This document shows, piece by piece, positions 2,381 to 15,008 of a DNA stretch of 39,091 nucleotides. A model generated the notes under the pieces. It was not told the DNA's origin. It saw nothing but the letters and a program-made list of their open reading frames with translations, and did no database searches. Position 1 is the first letter of the stretch; the number at the start of each line of letters is the position of its first letter. Both the position numbers and the translations under genes were made by a program. The DNA is from a virus, in the IMG/VR virus record IMGVR_UViG_3300042867_000366, positions 1 through 39,091 of that record; one strand, given 5' to 3'.

Positions 2381-2411
2381 CAAAGATACATCAAACTTCC
2401 ATTAGAACCAA
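2381..2411 (-). promoter_or_regulatory. Possible weak promoter at the end of the large terminase gene
   Basis: The minus strand shows TTG, 20 nt, TATCTTTG, matching TAnnTTTG with acceptable spacing, 5 nt before the 45-aa ORF start. It overlaps the last codons of the terminase gene, so the match may be fortuitous. Confidence 0.3.
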
Positions 2412-4540
2412 TATCCGTGTACTTGGATCATATATCTAACCGTATCTATGCAGTTATGGACTAAAACTCCATTAGCAAAATATTCGTGTTCTTCTTCAAT
2501 CATTAAATCGTATACATTATCAAAATATTTTTCTCCTTGCTCTAAGCGCACGAGCCTTGCAGTTTTGATGGCAGTATTTTGTAATTCCTGTTGTTCTTGA
2601 AGTATATTCTTTACCGCATTGATGACAGTTGTATTTTTTATATTCTGCTTTATCCCAAGCCATTTTGCCAATCTTCCTATGAAAATCAAGTCCTGCTTCT
2701 GTGCCGTGCCATTTGTTTGCAAACTCTCTGGCATAATCCATTCTTGCCCTAAGTTCTTCTTTATCCCTTGATGACATATGTTGAGATAAATGTTTACTCG
2801 CTTCAATACATTCCAAATTGGATATATCATTATTTTGCTGATTACCATCAATATGATGTATGTGATAACCTTTAGGTATTTTGCCATTAAAGAATTGCCA
2901 AACTTCAGTATGCAGTCTTTTACAACCTTTTGAAAAATACTTCTCTCCCTTGTACAAGTAGTATGTTTTTCCATCAAATACTTGGTAAGGTATAGTTCCA
3001 TCCCCTGCTTCAATGACGCAATCTCTACCCATCCTGTTGATGTCTTTATCTTGTGGTTGTGTGTGCATATAACTTCTGTTTTAGTGTTATCCTCAAAGAT
3101 AAGACTATACTTGCATACCTCCTTGCATCCATTATAAAACTTATGCACAACTTGATGCCATCCGCTACTTGTCAGTACTAAGTCACCTTGCACCATACTT
3201 CGTATTGGCATCAAACCATAAGGTGTTGTAATTAGTGTACTACCTACGAAACAATGGTTATGAGCATCAATAGGCTTACCACTTGGCTTACCATCCTTGT
3301 CCACCGCCCATACATACTGCGAGAACTCAGCAATCAAGTTTGGTGAGTCACTCGTAACGTGAATCTTCATACTTAGTAGCTTATCTATACCACCCTTGAT
3401 ACTCTTGTTAGGTGCAGGTCTCATATTCCTAAACCCAAGTGATGCGTTAGGATACCTCTCCCTATCTTCCTCACTCAAGTACTTGGCTATACCAAACCGC
3501 AACTCACGGATGGTATCAGGCTCGGCACAGTCAGCTACGATAAGTGTGTCTTCCAACATACCCAAGTCATTCAACTTCTTACCCAACTCTACCAACGCAA
3601 GTGGCTCGTAGTTCAACTCCTTTAGGTAAACGTGGTCTCCTTTCACCTTCATCCATACAGTTGCCGCAGGACTGGCAGTACCGAAGTCTTGCCCATAGCA
3701 CTCGGCATAGTCCAACTCCGCAAACTCTTCAGGTGTGATGATGTCATAGTTCTTGAATATCTGACCCTTCAACCCTGTTGTAGAGTAACCCTTGATACTC
3801 GTCAAGTAGTGATGTAGGTTATACAAGTGCGACTCAGAGTCTCCATAGGCTTCATACTGCCGAACGGTCTTATCAGGTAGGAACGTGTTATCCTTGTAGT
3901 TACATTGTATCGTTACCAATCCGTGTACATCCTTCGGCACAAGCTTGAAGTACCCACTTCGTTCCGTATCCGTCAACTGAGGTTCATCCTCTTCGGTAAT
4001 CGGTATAGCGTTGAAGTACCTACGCACGATCCAATGGTAGATGTCAGGTGTGTTCATAATGAAGATGATGTACGAACCACGCTTCCTGATACTGTCGCTG
4101 AACGTATTGAACTTATCCTCATCTCTTATATCTTCGCCCTCCTCTATACACGCTATGTCTACGTTCGATACCGACTTCATATTCGCCTTCTTATCTAACG
4201 TACTCGCCCTAAACCCCTTAGTGAACACCGCCATCTCGCCAGTCTTGTTGTTCTTGATACCATTCTCCAACCTTGAGAACTGCTTATCCAACACCGACTG
4301 CTTGTTAGCCGTATCCCATCTAAGTAGTACCTCGTTCAAGATACTCTCCTTGATACCTTCCTTCTCATCACGCAACACTTGACAACGCTTACCCTTGATA
4401 GCTGCGGAATAGGCTATAAACTTCGACACTTCATAAGTCTTACCGCCACCACGACCACCGATACAAACTACTATCTCGGTATCTTCAGCTAACTCATACA
4501 AAGGTGCAAACTTGGGAGTTCTCTTAACTATTACGTCCAT
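2402..4540 (-). CDS. terL: Terminase large subunit, interrupted by an intein
   Basis: 712-aa precursor: N-extein 1-429, intein 430-696, C-extein 697-712; the spliced product would be 445 aa, normal for TerL. The packaging ATPase has Walker A GGRGGGKT (28-35), Walker B DIACIEE (128-134) and the coupling segment NTPD (about 163). The RNase H-like nuclease has acidic motifs in YGQDFG (about 288) and VADCAEPD (about 335). The third nuclease motif, which reads DAHNH then CIDTVRY after removal of the intein, is split by it. Splicing is therefore expected to be needed for an active nuclease. It translocates DNA into the prohead and cuts it. Small terminase lies upstream across a non-coding spacer. 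The start is the first ATG, 5 nt from a TACATTTG element. Confidence 0.93.
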   Translation of the reverse strand: MDVIVKRTPKFAPLYELAEDTEIVVCIGGRGGGKTYEVSKFIAYSAAIKGKRCQVLRDEKEGIKESILNEVLLRWDTANKQSVLDKQFSRLENGIKNNKTGEMAVFTKGFRASTLDKKANMKSVSNVDIACIEEGEDIRDEDKFNTFSDSIRKRGSYIIFIMNTPDIYHWIVRRYFNAIPITEEDEPQLTDTERSGYFKLVPKDVHGLVTIQCNYKDNTFLPDKTVRQYEAYGDSESHLYNLHHYLTSIKGYSTTGLKGQIFKNYDIITPEEFAELDYAECYGQDFGTASPAATVWMKVKGDHVYLKELNYEPLALVELGKKLNDLGMLEDTLIVADCAEPDTIRELRFGIAKYLSEEDRERYPNASLGFRNMRPAPNKSIKGGIDKLLSMKIHVTSDSPNLIAEFSQYVWAVDKDGKPSGKPIDAHNHCFVGSTLITTPYGLMPIRSMVQGDLVLTSSGWHQVVHKFYNGCKEVCKYSLIFEDNTKTEVICTHNHKIKTSTGWVEIASLKQGMELYLTKYLMEKHTTCTRERSIFQKVVKDCILKFGNSLMAKYLKVITYIILMVISKIMIYPIWNVLKRVNIYLNICHQGIKKNLGQEWIMPESLQTNGTAQKQDLIFIGRLAKWLGIKQNIKNTTVINAVKNILQEQQELQNTAIKTARLVRLEQGEKYFDNVYDLMIEEEHEYFANGVLVHNCIDTVRYMIQVHGYWF
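2453..3253 (-). other. Intein in the large terminase (267 aa)
   Basis: Protein-splicing element starting at Cys (codon 3251-3253) and ending HN before Cys+1 (2450-2452). Block A reads CFVGSTLITTPYG. Block B reads CTHNHKIKTSTGW with the expected Thr-x-x-His type residues. Block F reads VYDLMIEEEHEYFANG and block G VLVHN followed by Cys. All splicing residues are present, so the element should be active. The segment between blocks B and F is about 165 codons. In the intein frame it is an Ile/Lys/Asn/Gln-rich sequence with no recognisable endonuclease, because that DNA encodes an HNH protein in another frame. Confidence 0.93.
2520..3068 (-). CDS. HNH homing endonuclease nested out of frame inside the TerL intein
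   Basis: 182 aa, in the -1 frame relative to the intein. The HNH core runs about residues 50-86: a KRLHTEVW helix, the GYHIHHIDGN motif with catalytic histidines around 69-72, then NNDISNLE. A C-terminal zinc ribbon uses a CHQC pair and a later C..NC pair and ends in a basic tail (KARALRARR). Such enzymes nick or cut intein-less alleles and so spread the element. The ATG at 3068 lies inside the block B codons and the stop at 2520 falls at block F, so the gene fills exactly the intein linker. An A-rich stretch precedes the ATG, fitting independent initiation; a -1 frameshift fusion to the intein is an alternative. The first 25 residues may not belong to the domain; Met13 is another possible start. 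Confidence 0.9.
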   Translation of the reverse strand: MHTQPQDKDINRMGRDCVIEAGDGTIPYQVFDGKTYYLYKGEKYFSKGCKRLHTEVWQFFNGKIPKGYHIHHIDGNQQNNDISNLECIEASKHLSQHMSSRDKEELRARMDYAREFANKWHGTEAGLDFHRKIGKMAWDKAEYKKYNCHQCGKEYTSRTTGITKYCHQNCKARALRARRKIF

Positions 4541-10135: not shown

Positions 10136-10144
10136 TGTGGATAA
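10136..10144 (-). promoter_or_regulatory. Perfect DnaA box
   Basis: TGTGGATAA on the plus strand, that is TTATCCACA on the minus strand, the exact bacterial DnaA consensus. It is 19 bp from the first TGCGACAT iteron. The phage also encodes a DnaA domain IV-like protein (14643..15008). Confidence 0.75.
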
Positions 10145-10162
10145 GTTTATAAAGTTATCAAC

Positions 10163-10421
10163 TGCGACATAGGTGCGACATTTTTAAGACCAATGTCGCA
10201 GTAAATGTCGCAGTAGTTTTTCAATGATACCAATGGTTTCAGAGCCTTACTGCGACATTTGTCGCACTTTGCGTTTTCAAAATATTTTTTTACAAATTTC
10301 ATTTTTGTAATCCTTTTTAGTAGGTGCGACATTCAAAATGTCGCAGTTGGTGTTAAATCGTTGATAGCATTGAGTTTGCAAGGAATATGAGGTGCGACAT
10401 AGTGCGACATAACTGCGACAT
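10163..10421. other. Probable replication origin: TGCGACAT iteron array
   Basis: Eleven copies of TGCGACAT or its complement (one shortened to TGTCGCA) at 10163, 10174, 10193(c), 10205(c), 10251, 10260(c), 10325, 10338(c), 10393, 10403 and 10414. Neighbouring tandem copies are 10-12 bp apart, one helical turn, and three pairs are inverted. An AT-rich tract (10279..10320) lies in the middle, as in a DNA unwinding element. The array fills the gap downstream of the primase gene, whose stop overlaps the last copy. A 61-aa ORF across it is made of repeat-encoded residues and is not called. It could instead be an operator array. Confidence 0.75.
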
Positions 10422-12685
10422 TATTTGCTCAATTCAGCAATATATCTCTGAATTTGCTTCCTTGATACATTCAACAACTCGGCAACTTCACTTCTATTCA
10501 ACTCAGGGTTAAGTGTGTATAACTCTTTGAATTTATCCTTTGTATTCATACTTTTATTAGCTATCATAGCCGTCTTCATTTCCTTCACTTCCATCGTGTT
10601 TACCTTAATCTTTTTAGCCATTGCCACAAAGTATTTAGATAACCGTTCAGCCTTTAGCATAGATTCCTTAGATATAAGCAAGGATGCCTCAGTTGGCTTC
10701 TCGGTCATATAGCAATCAAGACAATGGATCAACAATGCGAAACGTGGGATATAAGACTTCTGCTTAGGCAACATTGACTTCATATATTCGTTCTCCTCAT
10801 CAGAGTTTTGAACCGATGTTATCTCATTAAAGATACGCTTCCATTCAATACGAGCATCATCCGATAAACGTGCGATATAAGGGTCTATTTCCATATCAAG
10901 GTTATAGTTTACCACCCTACGCTTATAATGGTCATAAAACGCTTGTATTGCATTCGTATACCACTCCACCGCATCATACGGCATCTCGTTATCGTTATAG
11001 TGTTCTACTTCCAACTCAGGGAATGTAAGTAGCATCCTATCAACGAATCCATTATCCTTGTTCTCATCGGTATAGAACGTATTAAGAATCGAAGGTTGTA
11101 TACCACCAAGTACAGGAATCAATGGACGTTCAACAAATGAACCAACCCTTGACATCCGATTAAACGATACAGGCGAACCTGACCAAGTACTCAACCAAAA
11201 CTCCAAATCAGAACCCTCACGATACTTATTCATATCCTTGAACCAACCATTCAACTCATCCTTGAACACACCGACTGCGTTCTTCGATTGCTCGTGTAAG
11301 TCAACAAGAGCCTCAAGAGTGATGTCATTAGCTATGAACTGCGTCTTAACTGGCTTTGGTACATCCTCTACTTGCTTCTTCTCGGCTTCACTTGACTTGG
11401 AGTATACGGCATACTTCTCAGCGTGTTTGAGGTAAGACTTAATCTCTTTGGAGTTAATCTTCATCAATGGATGGATGATGTTCTTAATACTTGGTGTCTT
11501 ACCAAGTCCTGCCTTGCCAACAACAGCTATCCATACGTTGGCAGTCTCAACCCATCCACGTTTAACTTCGATGTGTATAGAGTTCCCAACTACAATAGAT
11601 GTCACCCATAACATAGAACAACCCATATAATCAATGCTACTATCAAGTGTGTTGTTGCACTCAATCATATAGTTCTGAATAGGTGCAGGGAAGATGTCAA
11701 TAGGAAACTTCAAGTCATCGGTATTGATACTTGTCTTGATGCGATTCTCTGGCAATGGTTTCACGATCCGTGAGCCAAATCCCTTAGAGTATAACTCCTT
11801 ACCTGCAACACTCATATTCCCATTGTGATACTTGTACGCGTATGCAATAAAAGGAGTAATTAGTTTCTCGTTCGGATAGATAGTTCCAGTTGAGAATAGA
11901 AACATACAACCACTATCCTTGTACACATATCCTGATTGTGAAGATTCTGCTCCGTGTCGAAGGATAATATCGTGCTTGGATAACTTACGAACTATCTTAA
12001 AGTCTTCACCAATGATGTCATAGATTGAAGTCTTCTCGTTATAGTCTTGCCACGGAGTAATGTTACTTGCATCGTACTCCTTAGTTATCTTCTTATCAGG
12101 TTGCAGTTGTTCGGATTGGTCAACGTAATTGTAAGTACGGCAGATTGACCACAAGATGCGTCTATCTCTCTCGCTAATCGTTTGGATAGATAGATAGTCT
12201 AACTTAGAGATTTGATTGTCATAAACAACCACATAGCCACCAATACCACGAGATTCAATGATGCACTCTTTATGTCCTTTGAGTTTGGCTATCTTAGAGT
12301 TACCTTGAATAGTATCGCACTTGTAAAGGATATGGTATCCCTGGTTCTTAGTCTTGTAGATTACGAACTTGCGATGGAAGTCATCAATGTTATCTTTAAG
12401 GTAGGAATGTAGTTCGTGCCAAAATTCTTCTTGTTCAGGAAGTGTGGGGAATACCTTTAAGTCAACATCTATAACTTCAAGGTTGTTATATCCTGTAAGG
12501 ATGCCTATTATCTCAGTCTTTGCTGATGTTGTTTCGCCATTATATGCTTTAGCCATCTCAGGCTTAGTGATAGGAGTTGTTTGATACTCCTTCCAAGTGT
12601 GCATATTAGGTTTCTTGTTCGCAGATGCAGTTATAAGACTAAACCCTGTGTCAAGTAATCGGTAACATCTATCTAATGTAATCAT
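10421..12685 (-). CDS. PrimPol - DUF3987 primase/helicase
   Basis: 754 aa. The N-terminal domain is an archaeo-eukaryotic primase fold: EVIDVDL with D73 and D75, GYHILYKC with H119, and ESRGIGGYVVVY. The middle and C-terminal part is DUF3987: a helical lead (FPAPIQNYM), then a Walker A GKAGLGKTPS near residue 391, ending with a small HTH (ELNRSEVAELLNVSRKQIQRYIAEL) that could bind the iterons. The protein should prime and unwind DNA at the origin just downstream. A promoter element and a leader of about 85 nt precede it. PrimPol-DUF3987 proteins are common replication proteins of mobile elements. Confidence 0.85.
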   Translation of the reverse strand: MITLDRCYRLLDTGFSLITASANKKPNMHTWKEYQTTPITKPEMAKAYNGETTSAKTEIIGILTGYNNLEVIDVDLKVFPTLPEQEEFWHELHSYLKDNIDDFHRKFVIYKTKNQGYHILYKCDTIQGNSKIAKLKGHKECIIESRGIGGYVVVYDNQISKLDYLSIQTISERDRRILWSICRTYNYVDQSEQLQPDKKITKEYDASNITPWQDYNEKTSIYDIIGEDFKIVRKLSKHDIILRHGAESSQSGYVYKDSGCMFLFSTGTIYPNEKLITPFIAYAYKYHNGNMSVAGKELYSKGFGSRIVKPLPENRIKTSINTDDLKFPIDIFPAPIQNYMIECNNTLDSSIDYMGCSMLWVTSIVVGNSIHIEVKRGWVETANVWIAVVGKAGLGKTPSIKNIIHPLMKINSKEIKSYLKHAEKYAVYSKSSEAEKKQVEDVPKPVKTQFIANDITLEALVDLHEQSKNAVGVFKDELNGWFKDMNKYREGSDLEFWLSTWSGSPVSFNRMSRVGSFVERPLIPVLGGIQPSILNTFYTDENKDNGFVDRMLLTFPELEVEHYNDNEMPYDAVEWYTNAIQAFYDHYKRRVVNYNLDMEIDPYIARLSDDARIEWKRIFNEITSVQNSDEENEYMKSMLPKQKSYIPRFALLIHCLDCYMTEKPTEASLLISKESMLKAERLSKYFVAMAKKIKVNTMEVKEMKTAMIANKSMNTKDKFKELYTLNPELNRSEVAELLNVSRKQIQRYIAELSK

Positions 12686-12785: not shown

Positions 12786-13157
12786 TTAGAATGGCAAATT
12801 TGATGAATCTCCCAATGGGTCAGTCGGTTGCACCACTTCCGCTTGTACTGTCTCAATGTGTTGACCACTACCTTGTTTATCTAATTTCCAAATTTCCAAA
12901 GAATTGAAACATTTTTCAATGCCATCAGATCCTGTCCAAAGCCTTCCTTTTACATTTACGGTACAAATAACTCTATCACCACCGTGTAAACCATCTAATA
13001 AGGAAGTTTTATCATTACCTGCTTGAATTTGCAAATACTGAGGGTATTCTCCATCCGTCTTAACGATAAAGTCAATTTTTTTGAACTTTTCACTTACTAC
13101 CTGAATAGGATTTTTTTTGTATAGTGTTCCTGACACTATGTAGCTTGTTTCCGCCAT
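12786..13157 (-). CDS. DUF3127 single-strand DNA-binding-like protein
   Basis: 123 aa. Matches the layout of DUF3127, an OB-fold family of Bacteroidota: GTLYKKNPIQVV.EKFKKIDFIVKTDGEYPQYL..Q, then DKTSLLDGLHGGDRVICTVNVKGRLW, FNSLEIWKL and a flexible tail. The final NLPF resembles the acidic DDLPF tip by which SSBs recruit partners, though less acidic here. It would coat single-stranded DNA during replication and recombination. It lies directly upstream of the primase. Confidence 0.8.
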   Translation of the reverse strand: MAETSYIVSGTLYKKNPIQVVSEKFKKIDFIVKTDGEYPQYLQIQAGNDKTSLLDGLHGGDRVICTVNVKGRLWTGSDGIEKCFNSLEIWKLDKQGSGQHIETVQAEVVQPTDPLGDSSNLPF

Positions 13158-13169
13158 TTTTTTGTTGTT

Positions 13170-13712
13170 TTAAATGTTAATATAAGTCTTTCTATTTTTT
13201 ATATTTGAAATTGCAGTTATACTCATTGAATATCTTTCTGCAATGATACGCATTGGTTTCCCATTTTTCATTTCTTCTATGATTCCAGCAATATGTGAAT
13301 TTGGTATTTTTGACATATGGTGATTTTCACCATAATTAGGATGAGTTAAATTACTTTTTATTGCGTGTAATTGATTTTCTTGATTTGTACACCATTCTAA
13401 ATTTTCCAATCTATTATCATCCTTAATGCCATTAATATGATTAATTTGAGGCTTATTAAATTGATTATTTAAAAAAGCTATTGCCATAACTCTATGAACA
13501 CTAGTATTAAATTTAATACAATTTTTAGAAAGTGATACTTGAATATATCCCTTTTTACTTTTTGAATATTTTATATTACGACCTTTTTGTAATCTTTTTT
13601 TTCCATCTTTATGATAAACTATATGGTCAATACTTTTAATAACTCCATATTGATTAACCATATAAATGCCTTTATAATTAATAACGTCTTTCCATATTAT
13701 TTCTGTACTCAT
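13170..13712 (-). CDS. Free-standing HNH homing endonuclease (NUMOD4-HNH-HTH)
   Basis: 180 aa. NUMOD4-like start (IIWKDVINYKGIYMVNQYGVIKSI), then the HNH_3 core (SVHRVMAIAFL... PQINHINGIKDDNRLENLEW) with the NHINGxxxDNR residues, and a C-terminal HTH-like repeat (MRIIAERYSMSITAISNIKNRKTY) that gives sequence specificity. It sits between the DUF3127 gene (12 nt away) and the cassette-like region and is more AT rich than its neighbours, signs of an inserted selfish gene. Expected to cut related phages lacking it. Confidence 0.9.
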   Translation of the reverse strand: MSTEIIWKDVINYKGIYMVNQYGVIKSIDHIVYHKDGKKRLQKGRNIKYSKSKKGYIQVSLSKNCIKFNTSVHRVMAIAFLNNQFNKPQINHINGIKDDNRLENLEWCTNQENQLHAIKSNLTHPNYGENHHMSKIPNSHIAGIIEEMKNGKPMRIIAERYSMSITAISNIKNRKTYINI

Positions 13713-14583: not shown

Positions 14584-14650
14584 TTGTGCTAATTTTAAAG
14601 TTTAGTGTTTCTAATCCCTTGCATTCGCAAGTCTGCAAACCGTTATGCGC
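14508..14650. repeat. attC-like palindromic element S1
   Basis: An imperfect inverted repeat. The left arm reads CTAAC, then CGGTTTTGCA and GCAAGGG; the right arm reads CCCTTGC, TGCAAACCG, TTATGC. The pairing is TAAC/GTTA, CGGTT(T)TGCA/TGCAAACCG with one bulged base, and GCAAGGG/CCCTTGC. TAAC to GTTA spans 128 nt. The right arm has a local hairpin (CTTGC/GCAAG). About two thirds of positions look conserved with S2 (15738..15876), with compensating changes in the stem, so the structure appears selected. Confidence 0.6.
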
Positions 14651-15008
14651 ACCGCACTATCTGAAACCTACTAATGATACAACCATCCCCACTATACCTC
14701 TTACGAGGCTCATACAACGATGTTTTCAAGTTTGGTGCATTATGTCTTAGCAAGGTAACAAATCTCTCGTAAAGAGCATCTTGTGTATCTCTCATATTAT
14801 TTACAACTTTAATCGAATTAATGATGGTTGTGTGGTCACGATAGGAAAGGAATCTGCCTATCTCGGAAAGGTTATAACCATTCTCGTAAGCTATGAAACA
14901 AAACAAATGTCTTGCCGTTGCAATGTCAAAAGTGCCTCGTCCACTATCTTGAATCTTTTTGATGGGGATGTTAAGTCCTGTTGCAATGTCTATAAGTATT
15001 CTATCCAT
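14643..15008 (-). CDS. DnaA domain IV-like origin-binding protein
   Basis: 121 aa, no ATPase part. Residues about 24-68 match the C-terminal DNA-binding domain of DnaA: FDIATARHLFCFIAYENGYNLSEIGRFL then YRDHTTIINSIKVV, with the RDHTT signature that contacts the DnaA box. It may recognise the perfect DnaA box or the iterons at 10.1-10.4 kb, or block host DnaA. It overlaps the upstream HTH gene by 8 nt. A stand-alone domain IV protein in a phage is uncommon but known types exist. Confidence 0.8.
   Translation of the reverse strand: MDRILIDIATGLNIPIKKIQDSGRGTFDIATARHLFCFIAYENGYNLSEIGRFLSYRDHTTIINSIKVVNNMRDTQDALYERFVTLLRHNAPNLKTSLYEPRKRYSGDGCIISRFQIVRCA

Follow-up and report, generated by a model that had tools for sequence, protein, structure and literature searches.

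How a phage with a fused primase-helicase begins to copy its genome, and where, is the question raised by the 39,091-nucleotide virus record IMGVR_UViG_3300042867_000366 (IMG/VR), the whole of which was analyzed and is referred to here as the window. Nearly all of its genes lie on the minus strand, and they include portal, terminase, capsid, and lysozyme genes as well as a replication block. An intein interrupts the gene for the terminase large subunit (2402 to 4540, minus strand), with Hint and intein-splicing matches at residues ~430 to 696. The first-pass annotation had proposed an iteron-type origin bound by the helix-turn-helix (HTH) of the neighboring primase, and this core reading is supported by comparative evidence. 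A ~260-bp repeat array is interpreted here as the phage replication origin, with the adjacent 754-amino-acid primase-helicase as the putative initiator and its HTH reading the iterons. We place the probability of this interpretation at about 84%; there are no binding, footprint, or replication data, and both origin activity and primase binding are inferred from comparison rather than demonstrated.

A total of 10 exact copies of TGCGACAT were found on both strands between positions 10163 and 10421, and the 8-mer occurs nowhere else in the window (Table 1). The expected number in 39 kb is 1.19, and none of 100 shuffles reached 10. Eleven copies had been claimed; 10 of these are exact, but the eleventh, TGCGACAA, matches at only seven of eight positions. 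Neighboring iterons are ~9 to 14 bp apart within clusters and form two mirrored sets with an AT-rich core between them. This core, which the annotation had also described, is 79% AT (87.5% in the best 40-mer) compared to a window mean of 64%. Since the array begins at the primase stop codon (10421), it lies 3′ of the primase gene in the sense of transcription. Counts, shuffles, and Pfam matches together confirm the claim of a real repeat array after the PrimPol-DUF3987 gene. GC skew, put forward earlier as a check on an origin at 10.2 kb, gave no sign of one: no switch was seen at the array, and the skew was mostly negative throughout the window, as expected with nearly all genes on one strand. 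An open reading frame of 61 codons (10147 to 10332, minus strand) extends across half of the array and is probably due to chance; the DNA at this site is replaced in the close relative L095.

TABLE 1 Features of the putative origin and nearby genes (window positions unless a relative is named)
Feature	Position	Strand	Basis or remark
Exact DnaA-box consensus TTATCCACA	10136-10144	-	Accessory at most, clade-specific
Iteron TGCGACAT	10163-10170	+	Exact-copy count
Iteron TGCGACAT	10174-10181	+	Exact-copy count
Iteron TGCGACAT	10193-10200	-	Exact-copy count
Iteron TGCGACAT	10205-10212	-	Exact-copy count
Iteron TGCGACAT, inner pair	10251-10258	+	Exact-copy count
Imperfect iteron TGCGACAA, inner pair	10259-10266	-	TGCGACAT at same site in close relatives L093 and L097
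AT-rich center, presumed DNA unwinding element	10268-10324	none	AT content; equivalent centers in relatives
Iteron TGCGACAT, inner pair	10325-10332	+	Exact-copy count
Iteron TGCGACAT, inner pair	10338-10345	-	Exact-copy count
Iteron TGCGACAT	10393-10400	+	Exact-copy count
Iteron TGCGACAT	10403-10410	+	Exact-copy count
Iteron TGCGACAT, one-base overlap with primase stop codon	10414-10421	+	Exact-copy count
Putative initiator: archaeo-eukaryotic PrimPol (N terminus), DUF3987 MCM-like AAA+ (residues 330-698), C-terminal HTH (residues 715-753)	10421-12685	-	Pfam, model, fold matches
Codons of C-terminal HTH (residues 715-753); modeled recognition helix 742-753 at codons 10427-10462	10427-10543	-	Model and association scan
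SSB-like protein (DUF3127/phrog_4932), immediately upstream of primase	12786-13157	-	Pfam and phrog match
Stand-alone protein like DnaA domain IV, without ATPase part	14643-15008	-	Bac_DnaA_C 3e-10; E. coli DnaA domain IV 1j1v 5e-4
Array 5′ of primase in relative L350 (TGCGACA; helix SRRTVQRL)	L350 219-345		DNA-first scan
Array 5′ of primase in relative L357 (TGTGACA; helix SRRQVIRA)	L357 7034-7300		DNA-first scan
Array 5′ of primase in relative L333 (TGGGACA; helix SRKTIQRW)	L333 1740-1960		DNA-first scan

The primase has the three marks of an archaeo-eukaryotic (AEP) PrimPol: a Pfam match above the cut-off (Prim-Pol, PF09250, 1e-5; 26.5 bits versus 22.8), the AEP acidic pair and histidine (D73, D75, and H118, invariant in 57 primase sequences), and a PrimPol fold, for which the best solved match was pRN1 ORF904. 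Pfam also identified DUF3987 (2e-57) and, at the cut-off, HTH_Mga. NCBIfam had no family for this protein, and phmmer found no solved structural relative by sequence. Residues 330 to 698 of an AlphaFold2 model (pLDDT of 84.9) matched MCM with Z scores of 17.1 to 15.7 over ~270 residues, mostly at 3.6 to 3.9 Å, and the 50 best fold matches listed for this segment were MCM or MCM-containing complexes. Judged by the model and by its Walker A motif (G390, G393, G395, and K396, invariant in 57 primase sequences), the DUF3987 part appears to be an MCM-like AAA+ fold, with helicase activity inferred. The fold matches and the invariant Walker A and AEP positions point to a protein that combines a PrimPol with an MCM-like AAA+ ring part and ends in a tip for reading DNA. 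The HTH at this tip has modeled helices at residues 715 to 725, 731 to 737, and 742 to 753, with the recognition helix starting exactly at 742. Since the whole-model pTM is only 0.58, the domain arrangement and hexamer stoichiometry are not given by the model.

Relatives recovered from IMG/VR and genome contigs comprised 292 loci in which the 3′ end of the primase was complete, or 126 after removal of duplicates. Nearly all are metagenomic contigs; the contig of one was binned as Psychroflexus and that of another as Bacteroidetes, which suggests Bacteroidota hosts. The strongest 7-mer array per locus was sought blindly over the whole locus, and adjacency was counted in the 101 nonredundant loci with both primase flanks present. 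In 97 of these, the strongest array adjoined the primase (47 directly 3′ and 50 directly 5′), compared to ~12% expected by position alone; in the other four, it lay elsewhere and none was adjacent at this threshold. Within 350 bp, the top 7-mer was present in a median of 10 copies, whereas the background maximum was 4. Multiple short repeats beside an initiator gene, beyond chance, are one criterion of an iteron origin, and it is met. Their sequence varies among relatives (TGCGACAT, TATGCAAA, GGTTTAAA, GGTTTACACT, GGTTACACT, GGTTCAATT, ATGTTACAC, TTTGACA, and others). The first-pass annotation had suggested looking for the 8-mer itself next to related primases; an array is there, but the 8-mer is not conserved, and because it changes with the HTH, the check has to be read as one for an array. 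A DNA-first scan with the window’s iteron pair recovered at least three further primase relatives outside the window’s clade, each with a nearby array (Table 1); among the matches listed, most were two-copy sites unlinked to this primase. No array was found beside the primases of the cultured Cellulophaga phages phi38:1 and phi4:1, in which only the PrimPol part matched.

Repeats were also observed in several more distant settings. An AGTGACA array (L299 7540-7790) lies directly 3′ of a PrimPol-helicase gene in the cultured Arthrobacter phage Peas; the helicase part is without a match to that of the window, and the phage could serve as a laboratory model for origins of this type. Weaker arrays were seen directly 3′ of a distant primase relative in Streptococcus prophage Javan191 (five copies; L301 6425-6775) and near another in a human fecal phage contig (seven copies; L302 4000-4350). 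TGCGACA arrays in L308 (~3535-3880) and L383 (~2737-3080) lie near a different protein of 599 amino acids, likewise with an HTH at its end, and may represent a convergent origin. In L271 (~2675-3025), ~22 copies of a 15-bp unit (consensus AATCAGCGTTGGATA) lie ~1 kb 5′ of the primase and are unlike the iteron arrays.

A common layout was found in 55 of 58 representatives, with sites clustered 3-2-center-2-3 on the average profile. Median values were 12 sites, a span of 247 bp, and a central gap of 64 bp, and the commonest split was 6+6. Distances between neighbors peaked at 11 bp for the same orientation and at 9 to 10 bp for opposite orientations, and inner pairs were divergent in 58 of 97 cases. 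The middle 40 bp of the relatives’ arrays had an AT fraction of 0.88 to 0.91, versus ~0.70 around it. Although the layout search imposed the central hole, it did not dictate the outer clusters or the AT content. An AT-rich, presumed unwinding region within the array, a further criterion of iteron origins, is present.

It is possible that the array is instead an operator through which the primase HTH or oligomer autoregulates the replication operon and its neighbors, with replication starting elsewhere. Such a role would fit the half or so of relatives’ arrays that lie 5′ of the primase, at the expected promoter, and the position of the window array 5′ of the next small open reading frame. However, the other half of the arrays have the same layout in a 3′ position, and a symmetric, 12-site arrangement of ~250 bp with a melting-prone AT center exceeds the needs of an operator. 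We consider this explanation unlikely, and regulation could in any case coexist with origin function. Plasmid iterons also serve copy control, and without independent mapping of the origin, the array could be a primase-bound site for incompatibility, copy control, handcuffing, segregation, or packaging, the true origin being elsewhere. Yet no ParA/ParB or plasmid Rep was identified among the window proteins scanned with Pfam, the only detected candidate binder is the primase-helicase, and the AT-rich center is conserved, all of which make a site of this type very improbable.

Support for an origin read by the primase HTH also came from an association scan across 58 representatives (<90% identity outside the HTH) and 583 variable primase columns. 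Iteron profiles were aligned from DNA alone, with protein data unused in motif placement; the alignment was seeded with GGTTTACACT after inspection of the motif list, and a minority of iterons mis-registered in the blind alignment were left so. The columns that best explained iteron variation were 742, 747, and 744, followed by 514 and then 743, and residues 742, 743, 744, and 747 all lie in the recognition helix of the C-terminal HTH. R742 paired with C at DNA position 7 in 32 of 32 cases, and L, V, I, or T at 742 paired with A7 in 22 of 23 (adjusted R2 = 0.90). K747 paired with G at position 2 without exception (33/33), while N747 occurred mostly with C or T at position 2 and R747 with T2-G3. 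R743 was paired with C5 in 8 of 10 cases, and other residues at 743 mostly with T5. In partial Mantel tests, the motif followed the helix given the body (0.65; P = 0.001) and not the body given the helix (0.02), and the best of 1,000 comparable control column sets reached 0.29. Primases with the same helix agreed at 95% of iteron positions even at body identity of <60%, compared to 52% for different helices. Helix residues remained near the top after stricter thinning to 44 or 33 representatives; in the set of 33 (<70% body identity), helix columns were within the top five but no longer led alone. The R742-C7 and K747-G2 pairings had no exceptions for R and K in either set.

The representatives are not phylogenetically independent, and natural swaps provide the best answer to this concern. 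The L095 primase is 98 to 99% identical to that of the window but has SKRQIYNY where the window has SRKQIQRY, and the repeat in its array is TATGCAAA. Nucleotide identity between the two drops from ~95% to ~40% from the recognition helix through the array and rises again past its end. Helix and array are also both exchanged between L290 and L291, which have bodies at least 99% identical; with the array 5′ in these loci, two separate segments changed together although ~2 kb of DNA between them is 98% identical. The combination of near-identical bodies with a different helix and array was also seen in L231/L234, L099/L113, and L108/L105. Swaps in near-identical bodies speak against common descent alone as the explanation for the covariation. 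Since helix and array evolve and exchange together, related phages would carry origins of different specificity. The earlier suggestion that the C-terminal HTH of the primase may bind the repeats is now strongly supported by adjacency, covariation, swaps, and layout, and the comparison supports a recognition helix that fixes the iteron sequence, although binding remains an inference in the absence of a binding assay.

A perfect DnaA box beside the array had also been claimed. The box is exact but not general: of the 58 diverse relatives, 1 has it at its array, with 0.35 predicted from chance alone, and one-mismatch boxes were not enriched in the window. It is kept in L093, L096, and L097, and in L095 despite the replaced array, and the phage encodes a DnaA-domain-IV-like protein (Table 1) that is, by inference, a possible partner. 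A DnaA-dependent origin, at which host DnaA or this phage protein binds TTATCCACA and the repeats merely assist, could draw on these observations. Nevertheless, the DnaA-like gene has relatives in 19 of 58 loci, covariation links the arrays to the primase helix, and the conserved boxes by which a DnaA-dependent origin would be recognized are lacking as far as sequence can tell; we give this alternative very little credence. A clade-specific accessory role of the box is possible, whereas a general role is not supported. A NUMOD4-HNH homing-type endonuclease gene (13170 to 13712, minus strand) lies between the SSB-like and DnaA-like genes.

Phage P4 likewise unites primase, helicase, and C-terminal origin binding in one protein (alpha) and has iterons at its ori, with a different helicase/primase arrangement. 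Among known systems, SaPI Rep/ori and SCCmec Cch/Cch2 come closest, and the best reading, by analogy, is that the window has a self-contained origin that works like SaPI Rep/ori. These systems share with the window an initiator helicase with a C-terminal origin-binding domain and a short-iteron origin directly downstream, and Cch (DUF927) is MCM-like (PMC7581432). The window, like the relatives whose arrays are 3′ (47 of 101 loci), has the SaPI-type layout of two iteron sets flanking an AT-rich region in a putative origin directly downstream. By sequence, the protein does not belong to the SaPI Rep families, as Pfam gives DUF3987 rather than DUF927 or D5/Primase_Cterm. Unlike in SaPI and SCCmec, PrimPol is here fused to a DUF3987 helicase, the phages are probably those of Bacteroidota, the reader is a small HTH, the array may be 3′ or 5′, and the iteron varies with the helix over ~100 phages. 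The PrimQH/PrimPol-PV1 primases of mobile elements combine AEP with diverse AAA+ domains, including DUF3987, and their C-terminal domain is predicted, but untested, to recognize the origin (PMC5862659). The word “iteron” is absent from that paper, and the PrimQH domain is a winged helix, whereas that of the window is modeled as a tri-helical HTH.

Covariation of initiator and iterons has precedents. The N-terminal domain of RepA and the iterons covary in PLE, satellites of Vibrio cholerae phage, and have undergone several swaps; replication requires cognate pairs, and a phage nuclease targets the PLE origin (PMC8263062). PLE differs in having three ~30-bp semi-palindromic iterons and an N-terminal specificity domain, and no residue-to-base table was found in the text consulted. 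In the geminivirus Rep iteron-related domain, the iteron covaries with a short initiator specificity region (work cited in PMC12548392), but this is a rolling-circle HUH Rep of eukaryotic single-stranded DNA viruses, unrelated in protein and mechanism. For the fused PrimPol-helicase ORF904 of Sulfolobus pRN1, an essential origin lies immediately 3′ of the gene (PMC4234260); this origin is a ~100-nucleotide stem-loop and not an iteron array.

At an origin of the kind proposed, the C-terminal HTH would read each iteron of 8 to 9 bp, and about a dozen copies in mirrored sets of 3+2 and 2+3, near a 10- to 11-bp phase, would flank an AT-rich center of ~60 bp. By inference, approximately six protomers per half would position a pair of MCM-like AAA+ rings flanking the center, the center would melt, the rings would unwind outward for a bidirectional start, and the fused PrimPol domain would make primers. 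A more specific version has the two rings loaded head to head with one HTH per iteron (6+6) and a simple residue-to-base helix code, and origin specificity switched by exchange of helix and array, perhaps as an escape from competing phages, satellites, or origin-targeting nucleases. This version is tentative, and we would not give it even odds.

The residue-base table over many phages, the natural swaps, the symmetric conserved layout, and the assignment of DUF3987 as MCM-like by fold appear to be new; no report of them was found in the literature searched, although absence is not proven. Approximately 100 natural variants point to the specificity residues, suggest a residue-base table, and offer ready cognate and noncognate pairs. 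If the layout does correspond to two rings per origin, it would be a compact, self-loading counterpart, in a bacterial virus, of MCM double-hexamer loading. That helix and array have been exchanged repeatedly between otherwise near-identical phages suggests that a change in origin specificity is under selection.
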